The notes under the pieces are model-generated. The model saw nothing but the letters and a program-made list of their open reading frames with translations, did not search any database and was not told the DNA's origin. The translations under genes were made by a program, and so were the position numbers. From assembly GCA_003104975.1 (NCBI GenBank), contig PQAM01000008.1:310001-374000 (forward strand): a stretch of 64,000 nucleotides of DNA, written 5' to 3'. The DNA comes from Candidatus Methylomirabilota bacterium. GTDB lineage: Bacteria; Methylomirabilota; Methylomirabilia; Methylomirabilales; Methylomirabilaceae. Positions within the stretch are counted from its first letter, which is position 1. Every line of letters begins with the position of its first letter. Of this stretch, positions 41,736 to 52,751 are shown piece after piece.

Positions 41736-43577
41736 ATGAGCCTAAAACGAAGTACGTCACTGATCGGGGGTCTGCTGATCCTGGCTGGAAGCCTTGTCGT
41801 GACGGCGCCGATGGCCTCTGCCAACGACGACCTGCTCAAGCTCCAGAAAGATGACGGGCAGTGGGCGCAGCAGGGGAAGAACTATGCGGCGACCCGCTAC
41901 AGCACCCTGAACCAGATTACGCCCGACAACGTGAAAAACCTGAAGGTCGCCTGGTCGTTCTCGTTGGGGACCCTCAACGGCCAAGAGGGAGGCCCGCTGG
42001 TTGTCGGCGACACCATGTACGTCCACAGCTCCTACTCAACGGGCAACTCGCACAACATCTTCGCGCTTGACCTGTCCAAGGAAGGGGCGCCGATCAAGTG
42101 GAAGTACGTGGCCAAGCACGACCCAAAGGCGGTTCCGGTCGCCTGCTGCGACCTCGTCCATCGGGGTCTCAATTACGCGAACGGCAAGATCCTGTATCAG
42201 ACGCTTGACGGTATCGTGATTGCCCTCGATGCCAAGACCGGCAAGGAGATCTGGAAGGCTCGGAATGCCGATCCCTCGAAGGGTGAGACGAACACCGGCT
42301 CCGGCATGGTGATTCACAATAAGTTCATTGTGGGTGTCGCCGGAGGTGAATTCGGCGTCCGCGGGTGGATCTCGGCCTACGACGTCGACACCGGGAAGCT
42401 GATCTGGAAGGCCCGCAGCGCGGGACCCGATGACGAGCTCTTGCTGGCGTCGGATTTCAACTCCGCCAATCCGCATTACGGGCGATTTGGCGAGGGGACC
42501 AAGAGCTGGCCCGGCGAGCAGTGGAAAGTGGGCGGCGGCACTACCTGGGGCTATTGGTCCTACGACCCCGAGTTGAATCTGCTCTATTACAGCACCGGCA
42601 ACCCGGGGACCTGGAACCCCGCTCCCCGCAAGGGCGGCGACAACAAGTGGTCGATGACCATCTGGGCCCGCAACCCTGATACCGGGATGGCCAAGTGGGC
42701 CTACCAGATGACCCCGTGGGATAACTGGGACTATGACGGGATCAATGAGTCTCTTCTGACCGACCAGACGATCGGCGGTAAGAAGGTCAAGGCCCTCACG
42801 CACTTCGACAGGAACGGCTTTGTCTACACCCTGGATCGCACCAACGGCACCCTCCTCAAGGCCGATGCGTTCGTCTATGTCAACTGGGCCAAGGGGGTCG
42901 ATCTGAAGACGGGACGGCCGATTGTGAACACCGAGAAGCTGACCAAGCAGGGCGAGGACACCAAGAATATCTGTCCCTGCGCCATGGGCGGCAAGAACCA
43001 GGTGCCGGCTGCCTACTCTCCGAAGACGAACCTCTTCTATGCGGCCGTCAACAACATGTGCATGAACTATGAGGGCGTGCTGGTTCAGTATACGGCCGGC
43101 GCTCCGTACGTGGGCGCGAATGTCCTGATGTTCAACGGTATGTCCAGCGGTGGCGAGCGCAAAGACAACTGGTGGGGTAATGTCATCGCCTGGGACGTCA
43201 ACCAGGGAAAAAGGGTATGGGACATCAAAGAGCAGCAGCCGCCATGGAGCGGCCCGGTCGTGACGTCTACAAACGTGGTCTTCTACGGCACGATGGACGG
43301 CTGGTTTAAGGCGGTTAGCGCTGTCGATGGGAAGCTCCTGTGGAAGCACAAGGTCGGCTCCGGGATCATCGGGAACCCGATGACCTTCAAAGGGCCGGAC
43401 GGCAAGCAGTATGTCGCCGTCTACTCCGGGATCGGCGGGTGGTTCGGCGCCACCGTGTCGCTCGACCTGCCGCCGGATGATCCGACTGCCGCATTGGGCG
43501 GTGTGAATGCGGCCTACCTGTCCGGTCTGCCCATGGCATCAAGCAAGGGCGGGACGCTGTACGTGTTTGGTCTGTAA
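41736..43577 (+). CDS. xoxF: Lanthanide-dependent PQQ methanol dehydrogenase XoxF
   Basis: XoxF oxidises methanol in the periplasm, using PQQ and a lanthanide ion, and passes electrons to a c-type cytochrome. The 613 residues start with a signal peptide (cleavage after ASAN or nearby). The eight-bladed propeller shows the vicinal disulfide C137-C138 (ACCDLVHRG) over PQQ, and the metal site E205 (VAGGEFGVRG), N289 (STGNPGTWNP) and D332 with the extra D334 (NWDYDG). The D-x-D pair distinguishes XoxF from calcium-dependent MxaF, which has Ala at the second place. Tryptophan-docking repeats such as GKLLWKHKVG and NLLYYSTGNPG are present. A strong terminator follows; xoxJ and a cytochrome gene come next. 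Confidence 0.96.
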   Translation: MSLKRSTSLIGGLLILAGSLVVTAPMASANDDLLKLQKDDGQWAQQGKNYAATRYSTLNQITPDNVKNLKVAWSFSLGTLNGQEGGPLVVGDTMYVHSSYSTGNSHNIFALDLSKEGAPIKWKYVAKHDPKAVPVACCDLVHRGLNYANGKILYQTLDGIVIALDAKTGKEIWKARNADPSKGETNTGSGMVIHNKFIVGVAGGEFGVRGWISAYDVDTGKLIWKARSAGPDDELLLASDFNSANPHYGRFGEGTKSWPGEQWKVGGGTTWGYWSYDPELNLLYYSTGNPGTWNPAPRKGGDNKWSMTIWARNPDTGMAKWAYQMTPWDNWDYDGINESLLTDQTIGGKKVKALTHFDRNGFVYTLDRTNGTLLKADAFVYVNWAKGVDLKTGRPIVNTEKLTKQGEDTKNICPCAMGGKNQVPAAYSPKTNLFYAAVNNMCMNYEGVLVQYTAGAPYVGANVLMFNGMSSGGERKDNWWGNVIAWDVNQGKRVWDIKEQQPPWSGPVVTSTNVVFYGTMDGWFKAVSAVDGKLLWKHKVGSGIIGNPMTFKGPDGKQYVAVYSGIGGWFGATVSLDLPPDDPTAALGGVNAAYLSGLPMASSKGGTLYVFGL

Positions 43578-43591
43578 GTTAATATGCCTGG

Positions 43592-43632
43592 AACCGGCGC
43601 CGAAGGATTGTCTCTTCGGCGCCGGTTTTTTG
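43592..43632 (+). terminator. Intrinsic terminator after xoxF
   Basis: AACCGGCGCCGAAG, a loop of seven bases, CTTCGGCGCCGGTT and a TTTTTT run: a near-perfect 14-bp stem with T-tail beginning 15 bases after the xoxF stop. Confidence 0.92.
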
Positions 43633-43641
43633 TGCTATAAT
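43631..43641 (+). promoter_or_regulatory. Extended -10 promoter for xoxJ-xoxG
   Basis: TGTGCTATAAT contains a perfect TATAAT at 43636-43641 preceded by TG-n, an extended -10 element. It starts right at the T-run of the xoxF terminator, so the distal genes have their own promoter. No -35 is visible because the upstream bases form the terminator stem. Confidence 0.55.
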
Positions 43642-43681
43642 ACGGCTAGGTAATTTTCAGGTCGTAGGGACAAACAGGTCG

Positions 43682-43723
43682 ATAGGCTGGAGGCTGTTAG
43701 GTAATCTTCAGCCTTCAGCCTAA
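43682..43723. repeat. ATAGGCTGGAGGCTG / CAGCCTTCAGCCT inverted repeat
   Basis: GATAGGCTGGAGGCTGTTAG, then TAATCTTCAGCCTTCAGCCT. It folds into one hairpin and matches the palindrome at 58335-58394. It lies in the xoxJ leader, between the extended -10 box and the start codon. Confidence 0.7.
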
Positions 43724-43742
43724 GCCTTTATGTTGAGGATGT

Positions 43743-44633
43743 ATGATGGACCGAAGACGTACTACACTCAGTGGATTGATTGCGCTGCTGCTGCTGCTAC
43801 CCTTTGTCGGACAGGCCTCAGGCGCTCATCTTTCGCAACTCAAGGTCTGTGGCGATCCGGATAACCTGCCCTTCTCGAACAAGCAATCGGAGGGGTTTGA
43901 GAACAAGATTGCCGAGGTCATCTCCAAGGAGATGGGAGCAGAGCTGGCCTACTTCTGGTGGCCCCACCAGCGTGGGTTGGTCCGGCGTGCGCTGCGACCG
44001 GGACTCTGTGATGTGATGATCTCGATCCCGCAGGGCTGGGATCAGGTGCTCTGGACAAAGCCCTATTATCGGTCGGCGTATGTCCTGATCTATCCCAAGA
44101 ATCGAGGGTTGCAGATCACATCGCTCGATGATCCGATTTTGAAGCAACTTAAGATTGGCGTATATATCAACACCCCGCCGGCGGAGGCATTGGCCAACAG
44201 GGAGATCAGGGCCAATGTCGTCGGTTACAGCCTCTTTGATAACGTTTCGACCGTGCGATCGGATAAGATCATCCGGGACCTGATTGCCGGCGAACTTGAT
44301 GTCGTACTGGATTGGGGGCCGATGGCCGGCTATGCGGTCAAGCAGTTGAACGGATCGTCACCCCTGGAGGTCGTCCTCCTCCAGGGTGGAGAGCCGGGAC
44401 TTCCTTTTACCTTTGAGTTTTCTATGGGGGTGAAGGAAGGCAATAAGGAACTCAAGGCTGAGCTTGAGGCGGCGATCGGCAAGCGCCAGGTCGAGATTCG
44501 GAAGATCCTGGAGGATTACGGGGTGCCACTTTTGCCGCTCCTGGCGCGCGAGCAATTTTCAAAGACTGAAGACAAGCCTGGAGAAATCTTTTACCGCCGT
44601 TTCGATCGGGAGGATCCCCTTCCCTCCTACTGA
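43743..44633 (+). CDS. xoxJ: Periplasmic binding-protein-like XoxJ/MxaJ
   Basis: A 296-residue periplasmic solute-binding-protein fold (SBP family 3 type). The signal peptide ends near GQASGAH and the body contains LKVCGDPDNLPFSNKQSEGF, MGAELAYFWWPHQRGLVRR, LRPGLCDVMISIPQGWDQVL and YYRSAYVLIYPKNRG, all typical of MxaJ/XoxJ. The protein is thought to help XoxF receive its metal or activate it. The ATG at 43743 is followed by a second ATG. It is followed 35-40 bases later by the cytochrome gene. Confidence 0.92.
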   Translation: MMDRRRTTLSGLIALLLLLPFVGQASGAHLSQLKVCGDPDNLPFSNKQSEGFENKIAEVISKEMGAELAYFWWPHQRGLVRRALRPGLCDVMISIPQGWDQVLWTKPYYRSAYVLIYPKNRGLQITSLDDPILKQLKIGVYINTPPAEALANREIRANVVGYSLFDNVSTVRSDKIIRDLIAGELDVVLDWGPMAGYAVKQLNGSSPLEVVLLQGGEPGLPFTFEFSMGVKEGNKELKAELEAAIGKRQVEIRKILEDYGVPLLPLLAREQFSKTEDKPGEIFYRRFDREDPLPSY

Positions 44634-44673
44634 AAAGGGCTAACCTAATCTTCTCTTACGAGGACCAGTGACC

Positions 44674-45165
44674 ATGAGACAGAAAAAGTCGCTTGTTACC
44701 ACGTTAATCCTCAGCGTTGTGATGTTGGGATGTGCCCAGAGCCTGACGGCTCAGACACAGAAGGAGCCGGAGAGGGCCGCACAGTATGCTCAAGCGCAGC
44801 CGGCCGAGTCGCCGAAGGCGCCTGAGACCCCAGCGCCTGCGGATCAGACGCCCAAGAAGCTGAATCCGTTTACCGGCAATCCGGATGCGATTAAGGAAGG
44901 GCGGCAATTATATCTGCAGAACGGGTGTCCGGGCTGTCATGGTTCTGGAGGCGGCGGTGCAATGGCCGGCGCGACGCCGTTCATCCGTGACGCCTGGAAA
45001 TTTGGTGGTGACGACGAGACCTATTTCAAGGTGATCAAGGGGACCTATCCGGGTCAGACGATGCCGGCGGTATTCGGGGCCAATCTGACCGATGAGCAGA
45101 CATGGAAAATCATTGCCTGGATCCGGTCCATCTATAAAGGCGATCCGGAAAGGATCGTCTGGTAG
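44674..45165 (+). CDS. xoxG: Cytochrome c, electron acceptor of XoxF
   Basis: A 163-residue class-I cytochrome c. The N-terminus MRQKKSLVTTLILSVVMLGC has a lipobox-like VMLGC, so it may be membrane-anchored; a Pro/Ala/Gln-rich linker follows. The heme site is C85-P-G-C88-H89 and the likely axial Met is M130 in GQTMPAVFG. I chose the ATG at 44674 because AGGA lies nine bases upstream; a GTG at 44668 is too close. By position after xoxF-xoxJ it is the XoxG/MxaG-type cytochrome taking electrons from methanol dehydrogenase, an inference from context. Confidence 0.88.
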   Translation: MRQKKSLVTTLILSVVMLGCAQSLTAQTQKEPERAAQYAQAQPAESPKAPETPAPADQTPKKLNPFTGNPDAIKEGRQLYLQNGCPGCHGSGGGGAMAGATPFIRDAWKFGGDDETYFKVIKGTYPGQTMPAVFGANLTDEQTWKIIAWIRSIYKGDPERIVW

Positions 45166-46510: not shown

Positions 46511-47041
46511 TCAGTGTGGTGTCGCCGTATTTATTCGGCGAGTGGAGCGAATCAACAACCAGATACACAGTGTGAGTTTCACCAGATCGAGGACGGTGAA
46601 GGTCAGATGGAGTCTCTTGAAGTAGGCCAATGCAGGGGGTGGCGGGGTACGAGGTACGAAGTCCAGGCTCCGACCGAGCGTCAGAAGCATCTGACTGAAC
46701 AGCAGCGACCCGAGGACGACGGCGAAAATCACGATGGCGATGGTGAGCGCCGTACGGTCTAACGGTCTCAATCCGACGACAGCAACGATGACGGCTGCGC
46801 CGAACACGACTTGGGCCACTCCCCAGGCGCTGAAATAGAGCCGATTGAGTTCCGCCACCAGATAGCGTAAGACACTACGAGCCTCATCCTGTCCACCGAG
46901 AGGAGCAATCGCGTGAGAGAACTCCTGCGTCGGCGAAGACAGCAGCCGATCGACCGTCCGGAAATTTTGTGTCGCGACGAATGCCATAAATAGGGTGCCG
47001 AGGATCCACCCGCCAAGCACCGTCGCGAGAAGTAATCTCAT
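46511..47041 (-). CDS. DUF4149-like integral membrane protein
   Basis: The 176-residue protein has about four membrane helices: LLLATVLGGWILGTLFMAFV, GVAQVVFGAAVIVAVVGL, TALTIAIVIFAVVLGSLLFS and LTFTVLDLVKLTLCIWLLIR. The arrangement and the FVATQNFRTVDRLL loop fit the DUF4149 family of unknown function. I chose the ATG at 47041, which puts the first helix at the N-terminus; a longer start would add 29 Gly/Pro-rich residues. It is the last gene of a minus-strand group with sixA and the ybhB-like gene. Confidence 0.6.
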   Translation of the reverse strand: MRLLLATVLGGWILGTLFMAFVATQNFRTVDRLLSSPTQEFSHAIAPLGGQDEARSVLRYLVAELNRLYFSAWGVAQVVFGAAVIVAVVGLRPLDRTALTIAIVIFAVVLGSLLFSQMLLTLGRSLDFVPRTPPPPALAYFKRLHLTFTVLDLVKLTLCIWLLIRSTRRINTATPH

Positions 47042-47094
47042 TGTTGGCCCGCCACCGATCCCAACCGTTTCGTATGAAGACTCATCAGGAGACC

Positions 47095-47577
47095 CTACCC
47101 CTGGGCCAGCTCTGGGGTGAGGACCCACAGGAGCCGAAAACCCCGATCGGTCTTTACAAGACAGATCATCGTACCAGTGTCCGGTCGGATGATCTCTGTC
47201 TCGCTGTTCCCCAGCACCAGTGCGGAGATGAGGCGGCTCAGATGCGGCAGGTGACCGACGAGCATCAGGGGCTCCGTCGCTTCTTCCAATTGGCCGCGGA
47301 CAGGTTCGAGTTCGGCGCCGGGCGAAAGACCTTCGGTCTCGCGGATACCGAGCCCGGGCAGCAGGTATTCGGCCAGAATCTCGGCAGTCTGTCTGGCCCT
47401 CAGCCTGTTGGAATGGCGAATTTCGCCGACCTCAATGCCGACGGACGCGGCGTATCGCGCCACCCGCATGACCTCCCGACGTCCGAGATCGCTAAGCGGC
47501 TTGGTCGGATCCTCCAGTTCGGTTTTTGCCGCTCCATGCCGCACCAGATAGTGCAGGACTGTCCGCTCTCCTGCCAT
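47095..47577 (-). CDS. sixA: Phosphohistidine phosphatase SixA-like
   Basis: A 160-residue histidine-phosphatase-superfamily protein. The phosphate-binding catalytic motif LVRHGAA contains the nucleophile H14, and MLVGHLPHLSRLISALV carries the second conserved His. SRLRARQTAEI-like residues (NRLRARQTAEILAEYL) complete the site. SixA removes phosphate from histidines of phosphorelay proteins. GGAGATAGGG precedes the ATG. It is two bases downstream of the ybhB-like gene and so belongs to the same operon. Confidence 0.85.
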   Translation of the reverse strand: MAGERTVLHYLVRHGAAKTELEDPTKPLSDLGRREVMRVARYAASVGIEVGEIRHSNRLRARQTAEILAEYLLPGLGIRETEGLSPGAELEPVRGQLEEATEPLMLVGHLPHLSRLISALVLGNSETEIIRPDTGTMICLVKTDRGFRLLWVLTPELAQG

Positions 47578-47579
47578 CC

Positions 47580-48116
47580 CTATCTCCGGCGATAGGTGCC
47601 CATCAGTTCAGCCTGTGCCACAATATGACCTTGCATCGCCTGTTCGAGGTCCTTCTTGGTTGCGCTGGACGGTAGGCCCATGGTCGTGTCGAGGGCGTAG
47701 AGCTTGAAGTAATACCGGTGGATCCCGGACGGCGGGCAAGGGCCGCCGTATCCCACCCGATGGAAGTCGGTCGTACCCTGCTGTGTTCCATTTGGGAGTG
47801 AGGCCGTCTTGGGGAAGTTCTCGTCGAAAGCGCGGCTGCTCGCCGGGATATTCCACATCACCCAATGAACCCATGTCCCCATCGGTGCATCAGGATCATC
47901 TGAGATGAGGGCAAAGCTTACCGTCCCGGCTGGAGGATCGGTCCAACTCAGCGGCGGAGAGATGTCTTGCCCATCGCAGGTGTACTTCGGGGGAATCATA
48001 TTGCCGGCCTGAAACGCCTGACTCTTCAGTTCCATGGTTGTCCCTCCTGCGCCGATCAGCAGCGCCGCAACCCCCATCACACCGAATCGCGTCAGTACAT
48101 TCATCAAGAAAGTCAT
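47580..48116 (-). CDS. YbhB/YbcL-type PEBP-family protein, secreted
   Basis: The 178 residues begin with a signal peptide (MNVLTRFGVMGVAALLIGAG) and then a phosphatidylethanolamine-binding-protein domain with IPPKYTCDGQDISPPLSW, DDPDAPMGTWVHWVMWNIPA and CPPSGIHRYYFKLYALDTTM, the DPDxP and GxHR anion-site motifs. Bacterial YbhB-like proteins bind small ligands; a precise function is unknown. I chose the ATG at 48116, four codons before a second ATG. It is the first gene of the ybhB-sixA-DUF4149 group. Confidence 0.85.
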   Translation of the reverse strand: MTFLMNVLTRFGVMGVAALLIGAGGTTMELKSQAFQAGNMIPPKYTCDGQDISPPLSWTDPPAGTVSFALISDDPDAPMGTWVHWVMWNIPASSRAFDENFPKTASLPNGTQQGTTDFHRVGYGGPCPPSGIHRYYFKLYALDTTMGLPSSATKKDLEQAMQGHIVAQAELMGTYRRR

Positions 48117-48503
48117 CCTATGGTCGTCCCGGTCACGCCTATGTCTTCGAAGAGCTCTACGATCTCTATGTGATGATAAGGAATGGTCGGTTATTACCAT
48201 AAGTCGGAACATAATGGCACTATACTTCTACTGTTTGCAATCACAATCTCCCATTTCGCGCCCGCCTGTCGGATAGCATAAAGGGGACTACTGCTTGATT
48301 GAATTAATACCCGGACGTCATTCCCGCAGTCTTTAAGCGGGAATCCATTGATTTTACTGGATACCCGCTCCCCGCTTACAGCCTGCGGGGACAAGCTTCG
48401 CGGGTATGACGGCTTATGTGCGTTGACTGTCGCAATGACGCACTACATACATCAGGCGGCAGTTACACCCGGCAGGTTATAGAAACCTGAATCCCGAGAC
48501 CCT
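48117..48503. other. Intergenic region with one palindromic repeat
   Basis: No gene was found in these 387 bases. They contain a divergent GTCATTCCCGC repeat at 48317-48410. The 3' end of the minus-strand operon (48504) lies right beside it, so the element may also serve as a transcription stop. Confidence 0.6.
48317..48410. repeat. GTCATTCCCGC palindromic repeat (copy G)
   Basis: GTCATTCCCGCAGTCTTTAA then GCGGGAATCC, and on the right GCGGGGACAAGCTTCGCGGG then TATGAC. The right end (GGGTATGAC) is diverged from the GGGAATGAC of the other copies (27943, 31010). Confidence 0.75.
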
Positions 48504-49748
48504 TCACCCCTGTGCAATCCACTGGCGGTACCAGGATTGGTCGTACCCTTGAACCTCTACCTTCTCCGCGTCCTCCAGAACAACGAATGGCGATCTGGAT
48601 TCCACCATCACGGCCACTTCTTCTCGAAACGGTAAGTCCCGTGGATCGGGTACCTCTTGCGGGGCGGTGTTGGCCAGCGTGCGGAGATCAGGCCCATGAG
48701 CCAAACCGGCCGGGTGTAACGTCATGAACCCATCCGCGATGTCGGGGCGAGCACCGTATCCCTTGTGATTGAAGAGCGCCTCATCCACCCAGTTAAGATG
48801 GTGATACGGCAGGCTATGAATCCAGCGGGGGAGGAATACCTGGATCGCCGCACCCTCATCCTCGCTCACAAACACGGTAAGTTTCTTCGGATCGAGATGA
48901 ACGTGGGGCGAAGACAGCGCCACCAGTTCGTCGAGCCGCAGGATGAAGGGCCATATCTCGCCCTCCCATGCCACAACATCGAAGATCGGCGTAGCGCATG
49001 AGAGCAACGTGGGACCGGCAAGTTGTCGTTTGATAACCACCTGCGTGGCCTCAGCTCCGCTGAGCGGCGGCTGAAGTTCGGTAAGCGGCGTCGGCTCCGG
49101 CGGAATCGGTGCAGCCGGCGAAAATGGCCAGAGCTGCTGATCCCCCATCCAGTAGTCGTAGGGCCGAAACAGCCGTTTGGGAATTTCATACAGGAGGAGG
49201 GTGACCCTTCCGGTTAAGAGAAACGAGTAGGCGACACCCCGCGGCAGAAATATGAAATCACCTTCGCGAATGTTTTCGAGGAGCCCGAACTCGGTCATAA
49301 GACTGAGGGGATGTTGAGACCGATGAAGAAAATAGAGCTCATAGCAATCGGCATGACGAGTAGCCGGTTGCCACTTCCCGACGTCGCCAAAATCCCCATT
49401 GCAGACCCAAATGGTCGCATCGTGACTCGCGAGGATGGGGACCAGGGAGTTGGACGCAGTGTGCTCTGTCAGATAGAAGGCGCGTCTCTGAAGAGGATGA
49501 CGTTCCGCAGTCGGCTGTGAGAGGTGCGCCCCGGATAAGGGATGGCGGGAGACAATCGTCTGGCTTTCAATGATGGGGGTTGGAGGATGCTCCAGCAGCA
49601 GTTCCGTACCGAATTCAAGCTTATAGCTCGAAAGGCCCCTCGGAGGGCGGCCGCTCCCGTGCCAGTCCTTGAGCCGCGTCTGATAGTCAACTCGAACCCT
49701 CCGTTCGGTTCGCGTGAGGTTCACCATCTTTGGTGCGTACCCCATCAT
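48504..49748 (-). CDS. Homogentisate 1,2-dioxygenase-like cupin protein
   Basis: The 414-residue protein is a distant relative of homogentisate 1,2-dioxygenase, an Fe(II) cupin that opens an aromatic ring. The three iron ligands are all in place: H317 in YHHLNWVDE, E323 six residues later, and H351 in GLAHGPD, with the same spacing as in the known enzyme. The N-terminal half is a beta-rich domain with GDFIFLPRGVAY. GGAG precedes the ATG at 49748. It is the last gene of a five-gene minus-strand operon with HPPD-like, FAH-like, PRTase-like and diiron-protein genes. The substrate is probably not plain homogentisate, since the protein is divergent. Confidence 0.75.
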   Translation of the reverse strand: MMGYAPKMVNLTRTERRVRVDYQTRLKDWHGSGRPPRGLSSYKLEFGTELLLEHPPTPIIESQTIVSRHPLSGAHLSQPTAERHPLQRRAFYLTEHTASNSLVPILASHDATIWVCNGDFGDVGKWQPATRHADCYELYFLHRSQHPLSLMTEFGLLENIREGDFIFLPRGVAYSFLLTGRVTLLLYEIPKRLFRPYDYWMGDQQLWPFSPAAPIPPEPTPLTELQPPLSGAEATQVVIKRQLAGPTLLSCATPIFDVVAWEGEIWPFILRLDELVALSSPHVHLDPKKLTVFVSEDEGAAIQVFLPRWIHSLPYHHLNWVDEALFNHKGYGARPDIADGFMTLHPAGLAHGPDLRTLANTAPQEVPDPRDLPFREEVAVMVESRSPFVVLEDAEKVEVQGYDQSWYRQWIAQG

Positions 49749-49790
49749 CTCTTCGCTCCAGTCTGAGGGAGCCGTGCTTCCCGGCTCCTT

Positions 49791-50474
49791 TTATGCTTCG
49801 AACGGATCCCAGTCAGGCGGAATACTGTCGAAGTCGAGGATCCAGATCGGTGTACCGGCCTCTTGCAACTCCTCCAGGCACCGATAGAGCGCCTGGACCG
49901 TGGCATGGTGGAAGTGAGTGGGATCACGTTCAAACAGGTCGAGGCGCTGATTGAGCTCGAGGAAGGGACCTGCCGCCGGGTTTGGCGAGCGGAAGAGCGA
50001 GCCGGTGAACATCTGGAGCAGCCGGCTGCGATCATCATACAGGATGGGGGTGGTGTAGCGGACCCCCAACTGCTCGGTGATCCGACGATACACTTCGATC
50101 GGACCCCCCTCGATACGGAGCGCCACGTGCTGAATTCCTTCCCCACAGCACGTGATGATGTGCGAGACCTGCGACTCACCCATCCGGTCGATCCCCTCCA
50201 CCGGCGCAATATAGCCGGCTCCAGACATCTTGCCGAGCTGGATGGCGACGGTCTTCATGCTGGAAGGGGCGTCAGGATCGGCGACATCGCGGCTTTTATA
50301 GGTGACATGGCCTCCCTGGATGGCGCGCATGAACAGATAGGCGGTCTCTCTGAGGCTCTGCGTGGCAAGTGCTGCATGATCAAGCTTCAACGTGAAGGTG
50401 TCCCATAGCTCTGCCAGGAGCAGATCCCGTTCCGCCTCGCTCAGACCGCCCGGTCCGCGCTGCGCTTTATCCAT
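49791..50474 (-). CDS. HPPD-like vicinal oxygen chelate protein, single module
   Basis: This 227-residue protein corresponds to the catalytic C-terminal module of 4-hydroxyphenylpyruvate dioxygenase; the N-terminal module (about 150 residues) is absent. The metal ligands are H33 (KLDHAAL), H116 (GIQHVALR) and E173 (PFLELNQR), and LLQMFTGSL matches the family. An Fe(II) oxygenase acting on an alpha-keto-acid-type or aromatic substrate is expected. I chose the ATG at 50474 (the previous codons are Arg-rich and unconvincing). It overlaps the FAH gene by eight bases and lies 42 bases before the homogentisate-dioxygenase-like gene. Confidence 0.75.
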   Translation of the reverse strand: MDKAQRGPGGLSEAERDLLLAELWDTFTLKLDHAALATQSLRETAYLFMRAIQGGHVTYKSRDVADPDAPSSMKTVAIQLGKMSGAGYIAPVEGIDRMGESQVSHIITCCGEGIQHVALRIEGGPIEVYRRITEQLGVRYTTPILYDDRSRLLQMFTGSLFRSPNPAAGPFLELNQRLDLFERDPTHFHHATVQALYRCLEELQEAGTPIWILDFDSIPPDWDPFEA

Positions 50475-51237
50475 GCCCCTCGCTCCTTCTGACAAAGCTG
50501 GTTGCAAGCGTTCCAATTCCCTCGACCTCCATCTCAACGGTATCTATCGTCTTTCCGTCCAACAGCCATGGATACTTCCCGGATGTTTCGGCGATGGAGC
50601 CGCCGGCAAACGTCCCGGACCCGATGAGCGTTCCGGCGTCGAGAATCAAAGGCTGTTGAGACAGATAGGCGATGATTGTTGGGAATGTCCACAAGGTCGA
50701 GTCGGTGTACGCCTGGGCTTCCAGACGAACCTCGCCGTTCACCCGCAGGACGATCTTGGGGTTTCGCGTCGCGAATTCCGCATACCGCACAAAGCGCGGC
50801 CCCAGCACCTTCCCGAGGATAGATTTGCTTCGTGCGGGGCCAAGCCCGAGTTGAACGTCCTCGCCTTGAAGGCATCGGCAGGACAGATCATTGAGGATCG
50901 TTACGCGACCATGTTTCCGCAGAAACGCCTCGGCCTCTTCCTCGGTCCATCCTTCCTGTGTGGCCTGATCGAGCAGGAGCGCGACTTCGAACTCGTAGTC
51001 CGCTTTCCGGATCGAGCGGGGGATGTTTACCGTCTCGCCGGCATGATGGATCTCGTGCCGGCCGAGGGCGAGCGCATAGTATGCCCACCTTACCCTGCGA
51101 AGATCGAGACTGTTTTGAATCTCCTCGTCGCTGCGTCCCGAACTCCTGCCCATGCCGATGATGTGTCTGGCATCCGAGACGCCGTCCAGGAATCGGACCG
51201 GATAGGTGAGGGCGTCTTTAATCGAGGTAACGGTCAT
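50467..51237 (-). CDS. Fumarylacetoacetate-hydrolase family protein
   Basis: The 256 residues have the FAH fold: acidic metal ligands in DYEFEVALLLD (E82, E84) and ILNDLS (D117), then SKSILGKVLGP, and the SGT motif in IGSGTFAGG. FAH-family enzymes hydrolyse or decarboxylate beta-keto compounds produced by ring cleavage; exact substrates differ. Here it lies between the PRTase-like gene (six-base gap) and the HPPD-like gene (overlap), all on one operon, so a ring-opening pathway product is the likely substrate. Confidence 0.8.
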   Translation of the reverse strand: MTVTSIKDALTYPVRFLDGVSDARHIIGMGRSSGRSDEEIQNSLDLRRVRWAYYALALGRHEIHHAGETVNIPRSIRKADYEFEVALLLDQATQEGWTEEEAEAFLRKHGRVTILNDLSCRCLQGEDVQLGLGPARSKSILGKVLGPRFVRYAEFATRNPKIVLRVNGEVRLEAQAYTDSTLWTFPTIIAYLSQQPLILDAGTLIGSGTFAGGSIAETSGKYPWLLDGKTIDTVEMEVEGIGTLATSFVRRSEGHG

Positions 51238-51243
51238 ATCCCT

Positions 51244-51942
51244 TCACCTTCTGAGGCGAGCGATGATCTCGGCGTTCGCCTCCTGCCAGGGTCGTAGTGT
51301 TGGTGCGCCTGCCGGACAGGCATCCGGATCATGATGGGTGACGGCGACGTGGAATGTAGTGTAGAGGTTGTCGGGAAACCTCCGCCGAAGCGCCTCGTTG
51401 AGGGGTGACGTCCCGAGAGCAATGGCGGCCGTACCGATGACGTGCCCGCCGCGCTTGACGGCTGCGTCCGGGAGTCGAAATCCGATACACCGACCGCCGG
51501 TCAGGCTGGTCAGATTGAACGTCAACACCGAAGAGCCGGTCGGAAGGTCCCCCTCGACGGCCTCGCCGAACCGACCGCTGGGCCTGGTCTCGAGATAGAC
51601 CGGTATGGCATCGACGACTTTCGAAAGCTGCTCGACGAAGCGCCGGGCCGGATCAGTCCCAGGAGCGAAAATGACGTGAGGCCGGAGGCCCTTCGTCGTC
51701 ATCCAGCGCATCACATCTTCGACGAGCCATGACACATATTCCTGGAACTCCACGATCGCTTCTGTGGCAAAATAGGCCTCGAGATGCACCTGCGCCCCAT
51801 CCGAATCCGAGGGGTACGCCAGATGCTGCCCGATCAAGAACGGCTCCGCCTCCTTGATGATCCTGCGCGCCCGCTCTGCGTCGAGGGTCGGTGACACGAG
51901 CGTTACGCCTTCAGCGATCCTCATCGAATCCCCCGCGTTCAT
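51244..51942 (-). CDS. PRTase-like protein with degenerate active site
   Basis: A 232-residue protein of uncertain family. A phosphoribosyltransferase-like fold is suggested by LRPHVIFAPGTDPARRFVEQ, then VDAIPVYLET, then SSVLTFNLTSLTGGRCIGFR and HVIGTAAIALGTSP, which follow the order of a type I PRTase core. But the canonical DDxxTTGG PRPP loop reads NLTSLTGG with the acidic pair lost, so it may not use PRPP. Its ATG overlaps the diiron gene stop by one base. The operon gives no canonical role for it, which makes it the most obscure member. Confidence 0.45.
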   Translation of the reverse strand: MNAGDSMRIAEGVTLVSPTLDAERARRIIKEAEPFLIGQHLAYPSDSDGAQVHLEAYFATEAIVEFQEYVSWLVEDVMRWMTTKGLRPHVIFAPGTDPARRFVEQLSKVVDAIPVYLETRPSGRFGEAVEGDLPTGSSVLTFNLTSLTGGRCIGFRLPDAAVKRGGHVIGTAAIALGTSPLNEALRRRFPDNLYTTFHVAVTHHDPDACPAGAPTLRPWQEANAEIIARLRR

Positions 51943-52751
51943 TACGCGAGCACTTGTCTGGCCGAGTTGAGCCCTTCCCAGAAAATGTATAAGGCATCAA
52001 GTGCTCTCCGCCCACCCTCTATGAACCTCTCTTGATCGAACGTGGGGTGAGAAAAGGTGTCCAGAAGCTCGCCGTACACGTTCTCTCCGTGCCCCGTTTC
52101 AAGCTCGAAGTGATGCTGGAAAAAGCCGAGCGGAATCGGCTCCAGACCATACGGCAGGCGCTGATGTTCATTGAAACCCCTCAGTCCGATGATCAGTTGT
52201 TTCCAGAAATTTGTGGACTCCGTCTCGTCGCCTTTGCCGATTCCCCACGCCGCCCAGGTCTCGATGCCGTAACTGGCGCCCGTGGCAAGCCGCCAATCGA
52301 GACTTCCATAGGCCTTCTCAAGCTCAATCAGAAAGCGCCGTGTCGGCGGGGTGGCGGTTCGCCAGTTGCCCAGCCGCTCCGGATCCAGTTTGAGCGGCGC
52401 GCATGTCTCGCGCAACCATTCAATATGGGCCCACTCCGTTCTGAATATCTGGTTCTCCGGGGTCTTATCCGATCCAAGCCTCACGCCGCATTCGTTGACC
52501 AGGATGTGGCGCGCCAGCTTCTCGCTTTCAAGGTTCGTCGCACGGGCGACTCGCTTGGCCTGTATCGGGACAAAATGCTTGGAAAAGACGGCGAACTGTT
52601 CAAGGAAATGGATGACTTGAGCAGGGTTGACTTCGCCGCGACTGAACCAGATGCAGAACCGGTTGTTCCTGATGACTTGATGCCGATGGATCTTCAGTGC
52701 GATCTTCTTCCAAAAGGCATCGAATTGTTTCTGTCGGGCATCGCTCTGCAT
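51942..52751 (-). CDS. Heme-oxygenase-like diiron protein (TenA/CADD-like)
   Basis: A 269-residue all-helical protein of the heme-oxygenase-like diiron oxidase/PqqC-like group. Candidate metal ligands are E87 (LVNECGV), H109 (WAHIEW), E164 (YGIETWAAW) and the H214-x3-E218-x2-H221 cluster (HHFELETGH), the same spacing as in CADD-type proteins. Such enzymes cleave or oxidise amino-acid-like or fatty substrates with two irons. GGAG precedes the ATG at 52751. It is the first gene of the five-gene operon. The non-aromatic chemistry expected of this fold contrasts with the ring-cleavage genes downstream, so a hybrid pathway is suggested. Confidence 0.7.
   Translation of the reverse strand: MQSDARQKQFDAFWKKIALKIHRHQVIRNNRFCIWFSRGEVNPAQVIHFLEQFAVFSKHFVPIQAKRVARATNLESEKLARHILVNECGVRLGSDKTPENQIFRTEWAHIEWLRETCAPLKLDPERLGNWRTATPPTRRFLIELEKAYGSLDWRLATGASYGIETWAAWGIGKGDETESTNFWKQLIIGLRGFNEHQRLPYGLEPIPLGFFQHHFELETGHGENVYGELLDTFSHPTFDQERFIEGGRRALDALYIFWEGLNSARQVLA

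Follow-up and report, generated by a model that had tools for sequence, protein, structure and literature searches.

The window analyzed here is the whole 64,000-nucleotide stretch of a Candidatus Methylomirabilota genome, and on its minus strand lies a five-gene operon (48504-52751). Judged from its sequence, the first protein of the operon belongs to an uncharacterized subfamily of heme-oxygenase-like diiron oxidases (HDOs), and our strongest and most portable result is that this subfamily is linked to the homogentisate pathway by both gene linkage and co-occurrence. The HDO is probably an unrecognized part of aromatic amino acid metabolism. Since the same subfamily recurs elsewhere beside ordinary clusters of 4-hydroxyphenylpyruvate dioxygenase (HPPD), homogentisate dioxygenase (HGD), fumarylacetoacetase (FAH) and acetoacetyl-CoA synthetase (AACS) genes, the operon is best read as having descended and diverged from a tyrosine/homogentisate gene set to which an HDO was coupled. 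The initial annotation had described ring-cleavage genes with two unrelated enzymes added. The diiron gene is indeed an addition but, given its recurrence beside such clusters, not an unrelated one. In the order HDO-like, phosphoribosyltransferase (PRT)-like, FAH-like, HPPD-like and HGD-like (from 52751 down to 48504), the genes are:

51942..52751, minus strand: HDO-family diiron-type oxidase, 269 aa (PF14518 above cut-off, six invariant putative ligands, BesC profile alignment)

51244..51942, minus strand: genus-specific protein, 232 aa, possibly with a degenerate type I PRTase fold (weak orotate PRTase profile match)

50467..51237, minus strand: FAH-family hydrolase, 256 aa (PF01557)

49791..50474, minus strand: HPPD-like VOC protein, 227 aa, corresponding to the catalytic C-terminal half (start from stops in relatives, alignment with cluster HPPDs, dN/dS)

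48504..49748, minus strand: HGD-like cupin dioxygenase, 414 aa (PF04209, TIGR01015, alignment to human HGD 1ey2, tree)

The link between the HDO subfamily and homogentisate genes emerged from other phyla. A sample of 388 genomes yielded six further HDO matches outside the phylum (genomes G386, G127, G137, G272, G110 and G119). In G386 the HDO gene, whose product is 50% identical to that of the operon, adjoins a cluster of HPPD, FAH, HGD, flavin reductase, thiolase and AACS genes, and within the phylum of G386 the HDO adjoins this HPPD-FAH-HGD-flavin reductase-thiolase-AACS cluster in six genomes. The HDO gene of G127 is divergent to HPPD, HGD and aminotransferase genes, with FAH near, while it adjoins an AACS-like gene in G137 and an aminotransferase gene in G272. 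In the cyanobacterium Kovacikia minuta, plasmid pA shows the arrangement HPPD-HGD-HDO-acyl-CoA synthetase-aminotransferase. Outside the genus, HDO-associated homogentisate-type genes are therefore present in a cyanobacterium and two further phyla (at least three other phyla in all), and between them the loci hold aminotransferase, full-length HPPD, HGD, FAH, thiolase and AACS genes. A gene of the indolepyruvate/phenylpyruvate decarboxylase family is the immediate neighbor of the HDO gene in two G386-phylum genomes (L098:10216-11868 and L099:8152-9834), which we count as support for a role in aromatic amino acid metabolism. The HDO relative on a Gloeothece verrucosa plasmid (L057:9923-12818) is followed by a 2-oxoglutarate-Fe dioxygenase gene and a class V aminotransferase-like gene, perhaps reflecting another use of the HDO.

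The co-occurrence data come from the phylum of G386. There, HGD was scored using an HGD protein of that phylum as the probe, because PF04209 at E 1e-6 missed the divergent HGDs of the clusters. The HDO is encoded in 11 of the 77 genomes and a matching HGD in nine, every one of them HDO-positive (hypergeometric P = 3.4e-10, a figure that ignores shared ancestry). The two HDO-positive genomes without HGD are about 70% complete. Genomes with both HDO and HGD and genomes with neither occur side by side within genera g297, g304, g306 and g309; shared ancestry is therefore not the whole reason for the link. The two genes are adjacent in six genomes of the phylum and lie on separate contigs in G392, G398 and G412. 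The recurrence of the HDO with the pathway in several phyla counts against one further account of the operon, namely ordinary tyrosine degradation with incidental extra genes and lineage drift as the source of divergence. The presence of HPPD-, HGD- and FAH-like proteins in one operon speaks for it, but the HPPD is truncated and dN/dS is low in all five genes, and we consider this account very improbable.

Within Methylomirabilis the operon behaves as a unit. As annotated initially, the five genes overlap or are at most 42 bases apart, and the same order is found in other genomes of the genus. The HDO and PRT-like genes overlap by one base (TAATG), and 6 bases separate the PRT-like gene from the FAH-like gene. 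Most relatives show an in-frame stop just 5' of the ATG at 50474, and we therefore placed the start of the HPPD-like gene there, which gives an 8-base overlap with the FAH-like gene; the HGD-like gene follows after 42 bases. The HGD-like and HPPD-like proteins are encoded in nine of the 15 genus genomes (source genome counted) and the HDO-like protein in eight, the contig of the ninth operon ending before the HDO gene. The remaining genomes, including three that are 94-99% complete (G001, G007 and G014), have none of the three. Thus, the operon is either present or absent as a whole. Purifying selection acts on all five genes: the between-species ratio of nonsynonymous to synonymous substitution rates (dN/dS) is 0.06-0.26 for each and lowest for the HPPD-like gene (0.06-0.11). 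One Methylomirabilis species (G009) has an extra gene of the tryptophanase/tyrosine phenol-lyase family between the HPPD-like and HGD-like genes (L035:10316-11719). We count this insertion, seen in that operon only, toward the aromatic amino acid reading.

The HDO-like protein scores 29.6 bits against PF14518 (cut-off 28.9), a family matched by eight of the 17 subfamily members. Its putative 3H/3C metal ligands (E87, H109, E164, H214, E218 and H221) are invariant in all 17 sequences, which span several phyla. Profile alignment with BesC (7twa) takes in E164, H214, E218 and H221, while E87 and H109 were assigned by order only. E51 and H59 were considered as the N-terminal ligand pair and rejected, as neither is conserved. 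The six residues fit the 3H/3C pattern of the superfamily as given in the part of the HDO review available to us (PMC13108848). A profile of the subfamily touches few PDB sequences, BesC and CADD among them (E 0.07-1.1), and a structure model built from three sequences was too poor for use, with a pLDDT (predicted local distance difference test) of 45. In the tree, the Methylomirabilis HDO is sister to the G386 clade. It is also the component best conserved relative to that phylum (about 50% identity), compared with 24-29% for HGD and 31-36% for FAH. No HDO relative was found in a phage search, and our literature search returned nothing joining HDOs to homogentisate and no account of this subfamily.

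The downstream enzymes are recognizable and yet strongly diverged. The initial annotation described the HPPD as half-length, and this holds with the start at 50474. The protein matches TIGR01263 below threshold (18.2 versus 277 bits). Alignment with the HPPDs of homogentisate clusters shows that it keeps the Fe ligands H33, H116 and E173 together with Gln102, Gln115, Gln154 and Phe156. Missing are the N-terminal domain and some 30 residues of the C-terminal one, and other residues stand in place of Asn282, Asn423 and Phe424 of plant HPPD (Arabidopsis numbering). The protein thus lacks the two-domain (N + C) architecture of HPPD and part of its substrate-pocket residues, of which the three Gln and the Phe remain. 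With the N-terminal domain and several pocket residues gone, 4-hydroxyphenylpyruvate may not be its substrate.

The HGD-like protein was likewise correctly described as divergent with its iron ligands retained. It scores 28.5 bits against PF04209 (cut-off 21) and 44.6 bits against TIGR01015, below the equivalog cut-off of 510.75. In the alignment to 1ey2, H317, E323 and H351 correspond to the human Fe ligands H335, E341 and H371, and H284, Y331 and H345 are also kept. The HGDs in the HDO clusters of relatives are themselves divergent. The FAH-like protein matches PF01557 (86.7 bits) and falls below the cut-off of the fumarylacetoacetase equivalog TIGR01266 (18.5 versus 375.3 bits). Its metal residues E82, E84 and D117 (an E-x-E ... 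D site) are kept across the genus. It is 85-87% identical to named Methylomirabilis relatives, which places the window in a Candidatus Methylomirabilis genome, and 31-37% identical to the FAHs of homogentisate clusters. In the trees, both the HGD-like and the FAH-like proteins are on long stems outside the other sampled clades, so that placement inside tyrosine-degradation clades was not seen.

The product of the second gene matched no Pfam or NCBIfam family, and in the search of 388 genomes it was confined to the genus; a plasmid search found no relative of it or of the HPPD-like protein. The genus profile weakly matches orotate PRTase (5hkf), its best lead, with E = 0.056 over the region of the phosphoribosyl pyrophosphate (PRPP) loop. 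At the loop position the protein has VLTFNLTSLTGGR, in which a loop-like TGG is kept and the acidic pair is lost (replaced by Asn-Leu). The structure model, built from three sequences, was again too poor for use (pLDDT 37). The original label 'PRTase-like' is thus weakly supported, and the protein possibly represents a degenerate type I PRTase fold.

Which step might the HDO serve? Phenylalanine hydroxylase is the pathway step left without a gene, as is the isomerase in most cases. The phenylalanine hydroxylase PhhA (PF00351) is found in none of the 18 HDO-positive genomes versus two of the nine HDO-negative ones. Maleylacetoacetate isomerase (MAAI; TIGR01262 over cut-off) is found in only one of the 18, G137; the isomerase, noted initially as missing from the operon, is absent from the genome of the window too by the same profile. 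An isomerase missing from 17 of 18 genomes could mean that the HDO acts elsewhere in the homogentisate route, replacing MAAI or the aminotransferase, or clearing a by-product. However, G137 has a strong MAAI (269 bits) in addition to the HDO, and its MAAI contig also carries an aminotransferase gene, a classical HGD and FAH; the HDO lies on a different contig. Therefore, the HDO need not replace any of these steps there. Moreover, the HDO has an aminotransferase gene nearby in G127, G272 and Kovacikia, and isomerisation needs no O2-activating diiron site. Substitution for MAAI or the aminotransferase is thus disfavored by G137, and a role at another step is on the whole unlikely. The missing PhhA step and the independence of G137 together favor an oxidation that starts the route, with conversion of Phe to Tyr being the simplest option.

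We therefore propose, with a probability of roughly 45%, that the five genes specify an O2-dependent pathway acting on an aromatic amino acid, with the HDO at its top, perhaps hydroxylating Phe to Tyr without pterin. The HDO-family enzyme would oxidize Phe or Tyr, ring hydroxylation of Phe being the likeliest reaction. After transamination, the HPPD-like protein would turn the arylpyruvate into a dihydroxyarylacetate, the HGD-like cupin would open the ring and the FAH-like hydrolase would cleave the ring-opening product. The operon itself, its conservation and selection, the ligands and the linkage and co-occurrence of the HDO with the homogentisate pathway are what we show, whereas we infer the HDO reaction, the substrate and the role of the PRT-like protein. 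As the three downstream enzymes are strongly diverged and the fifth protein is genus-specific, the Methylomirabilis substrate may be a variant of 4-hydroxyphenylpyruvate or homogentisate. Most simply, the HDO would catalyze one reaction here and in other phyla, while the downstream enzymes would have drifted or been re-targeted. Several observations weigh against this proposal. The HPPD-like protein lacks its N-terminal domain and several pocket residues, no homogentisate gene lies near the HDO in G110, G119 or Gloeothece, and the anti-correlation of PhhA and HDO is weak (Fisher about 0.10). In addition, the portion of the HDO review available to us describes no aromatic ring hydroxylation (PMC13108848).

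A re-targeted pathway has to be weighed as well. The operon would then handle some other aromatic compound, for instance an arylpyruvate that is modified or substituted on the ring, and might serve synthesis instead of degradation, with the PRT-like protein conjugating or binding a product. The losses in the HPPD-like protein, the long stems of the HGD-like and FAH-like proteins and the genus-specific fifth gene all suit this possibility. So does lifestyle: Methylomirabilis, a methane oxidizer that makes its own O2, lives on one-carbon (C1) compounds and therefore has no obvious need for amino acid catabolism. On the other hand, the HPPD-like protein retains all its Fe ligands and three pocket Gln residues, the HDO is 50% identical to that of loci resembling plain tyrosine catabolism, and the operon holds no resistance, transport or export gene. 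We regard re-targeting as possible, though rather doubtful. The initial suggestion of a pathway for another substrate, perhaps biosynthetic, is accordingly possible as to the substrate, given the remodeled pocket and long stems; its biosynthetic part found no direct support.

The proposed phenylalanine-hydroxylase function of the HDO, drawn from gene context, may perhaps extend further. The subfamily as a whole would be an unrecognized phenylalanine (aryl) hydroxylase that works without pterin and supplies the homogentisate pathway of several phyla, and Methylomirabilis would have evolved a derived ring-opening pathway from it; in this general form we hold the idea only tentatively and think it unlikely. 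Even so, gene order and co-occurrence tie the subfamily to aromatic amino acid catabolism and thereby give it a concrete substrate class. The HDO may explain how Phe is handled in genomes that have the homogentisate pathway but no PhhA, and the operon itself shows that a methane oxidizer carries a diverged set of O2-dependent ring-opening genes.

Around the operon, synteny is kept through the genus for an upstream four-gene block (ALDH, DDAH-like, aminotransferase and thiamine pyrophosphate (TPP) genes) and for an xoxF-type methanol dehydrogenase cluster 3-7 kb downstream (41736-45165 of the window; xox names assigned by eye). Beyond the HGD-like gene the same strand encodes a small membrane protein, a SixA-like phosphatase and a PEBP/YbhB-like protein (46511-48212, also named by eye). 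The gap is 290 bases in the window, while in loci L034, L041 and L042 these genes follow within a few bases of the HGD-like gene, and the transcript may therefore be longer there. Separately, 17 plasmid records of Priestia, Streptomyces, Rhodococcus, Pseudonocardia, Nonomuraea and Kovacikia hold an uncharacterized family of about 290-340 aa with no Pfam match (e.g. L128:1-1017 (P0006), L129:5032-5910 (P0007) and L058:5832-6728). An HGD gene is present in the majority of the records too, often right next to the gene of this family, and in Priestia fahA lies beside it. As the hosts are mostly glutathione-free lineages, the family is a candidate glutathione-independent maleylacetoacetate isomerase.

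Compared with known systems, the operon is closest to the tyrosine/homogentisate pathway. It shares HPPD-, HGD- and FAH-like genes with kept metal ligands in one operon, and relatives of its HDO lie inside recognizable HPPD-HGD-FAH-thiolase-AACS clusters. It differs in the half-length HPPD, the divergent HGD and FAH, the absence of MAAI, and the added HDO and genus-specific genes. With the HDOs BesC, UndA, SznF, AetD and CADD it has in common PF14518 and the 3H/3C ligand set. However, its HDO forms a separate subfamily, among whose members we found none characterized, and genes of this type occur in a setting of homogentisate catabolism, not of natural-product, fatty-acid or p-aminobenzoate synthesis. 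The second protein bears a weak likeness to orotate phosphoribosyltransferase over the PRPP loop, with the acidic pair replaced. Finally, PhhA would occupy the same proposed place, feeding the homogentisate route, but it belongs to an unrelated family and is absent from all 18 HDO-positive genomes.

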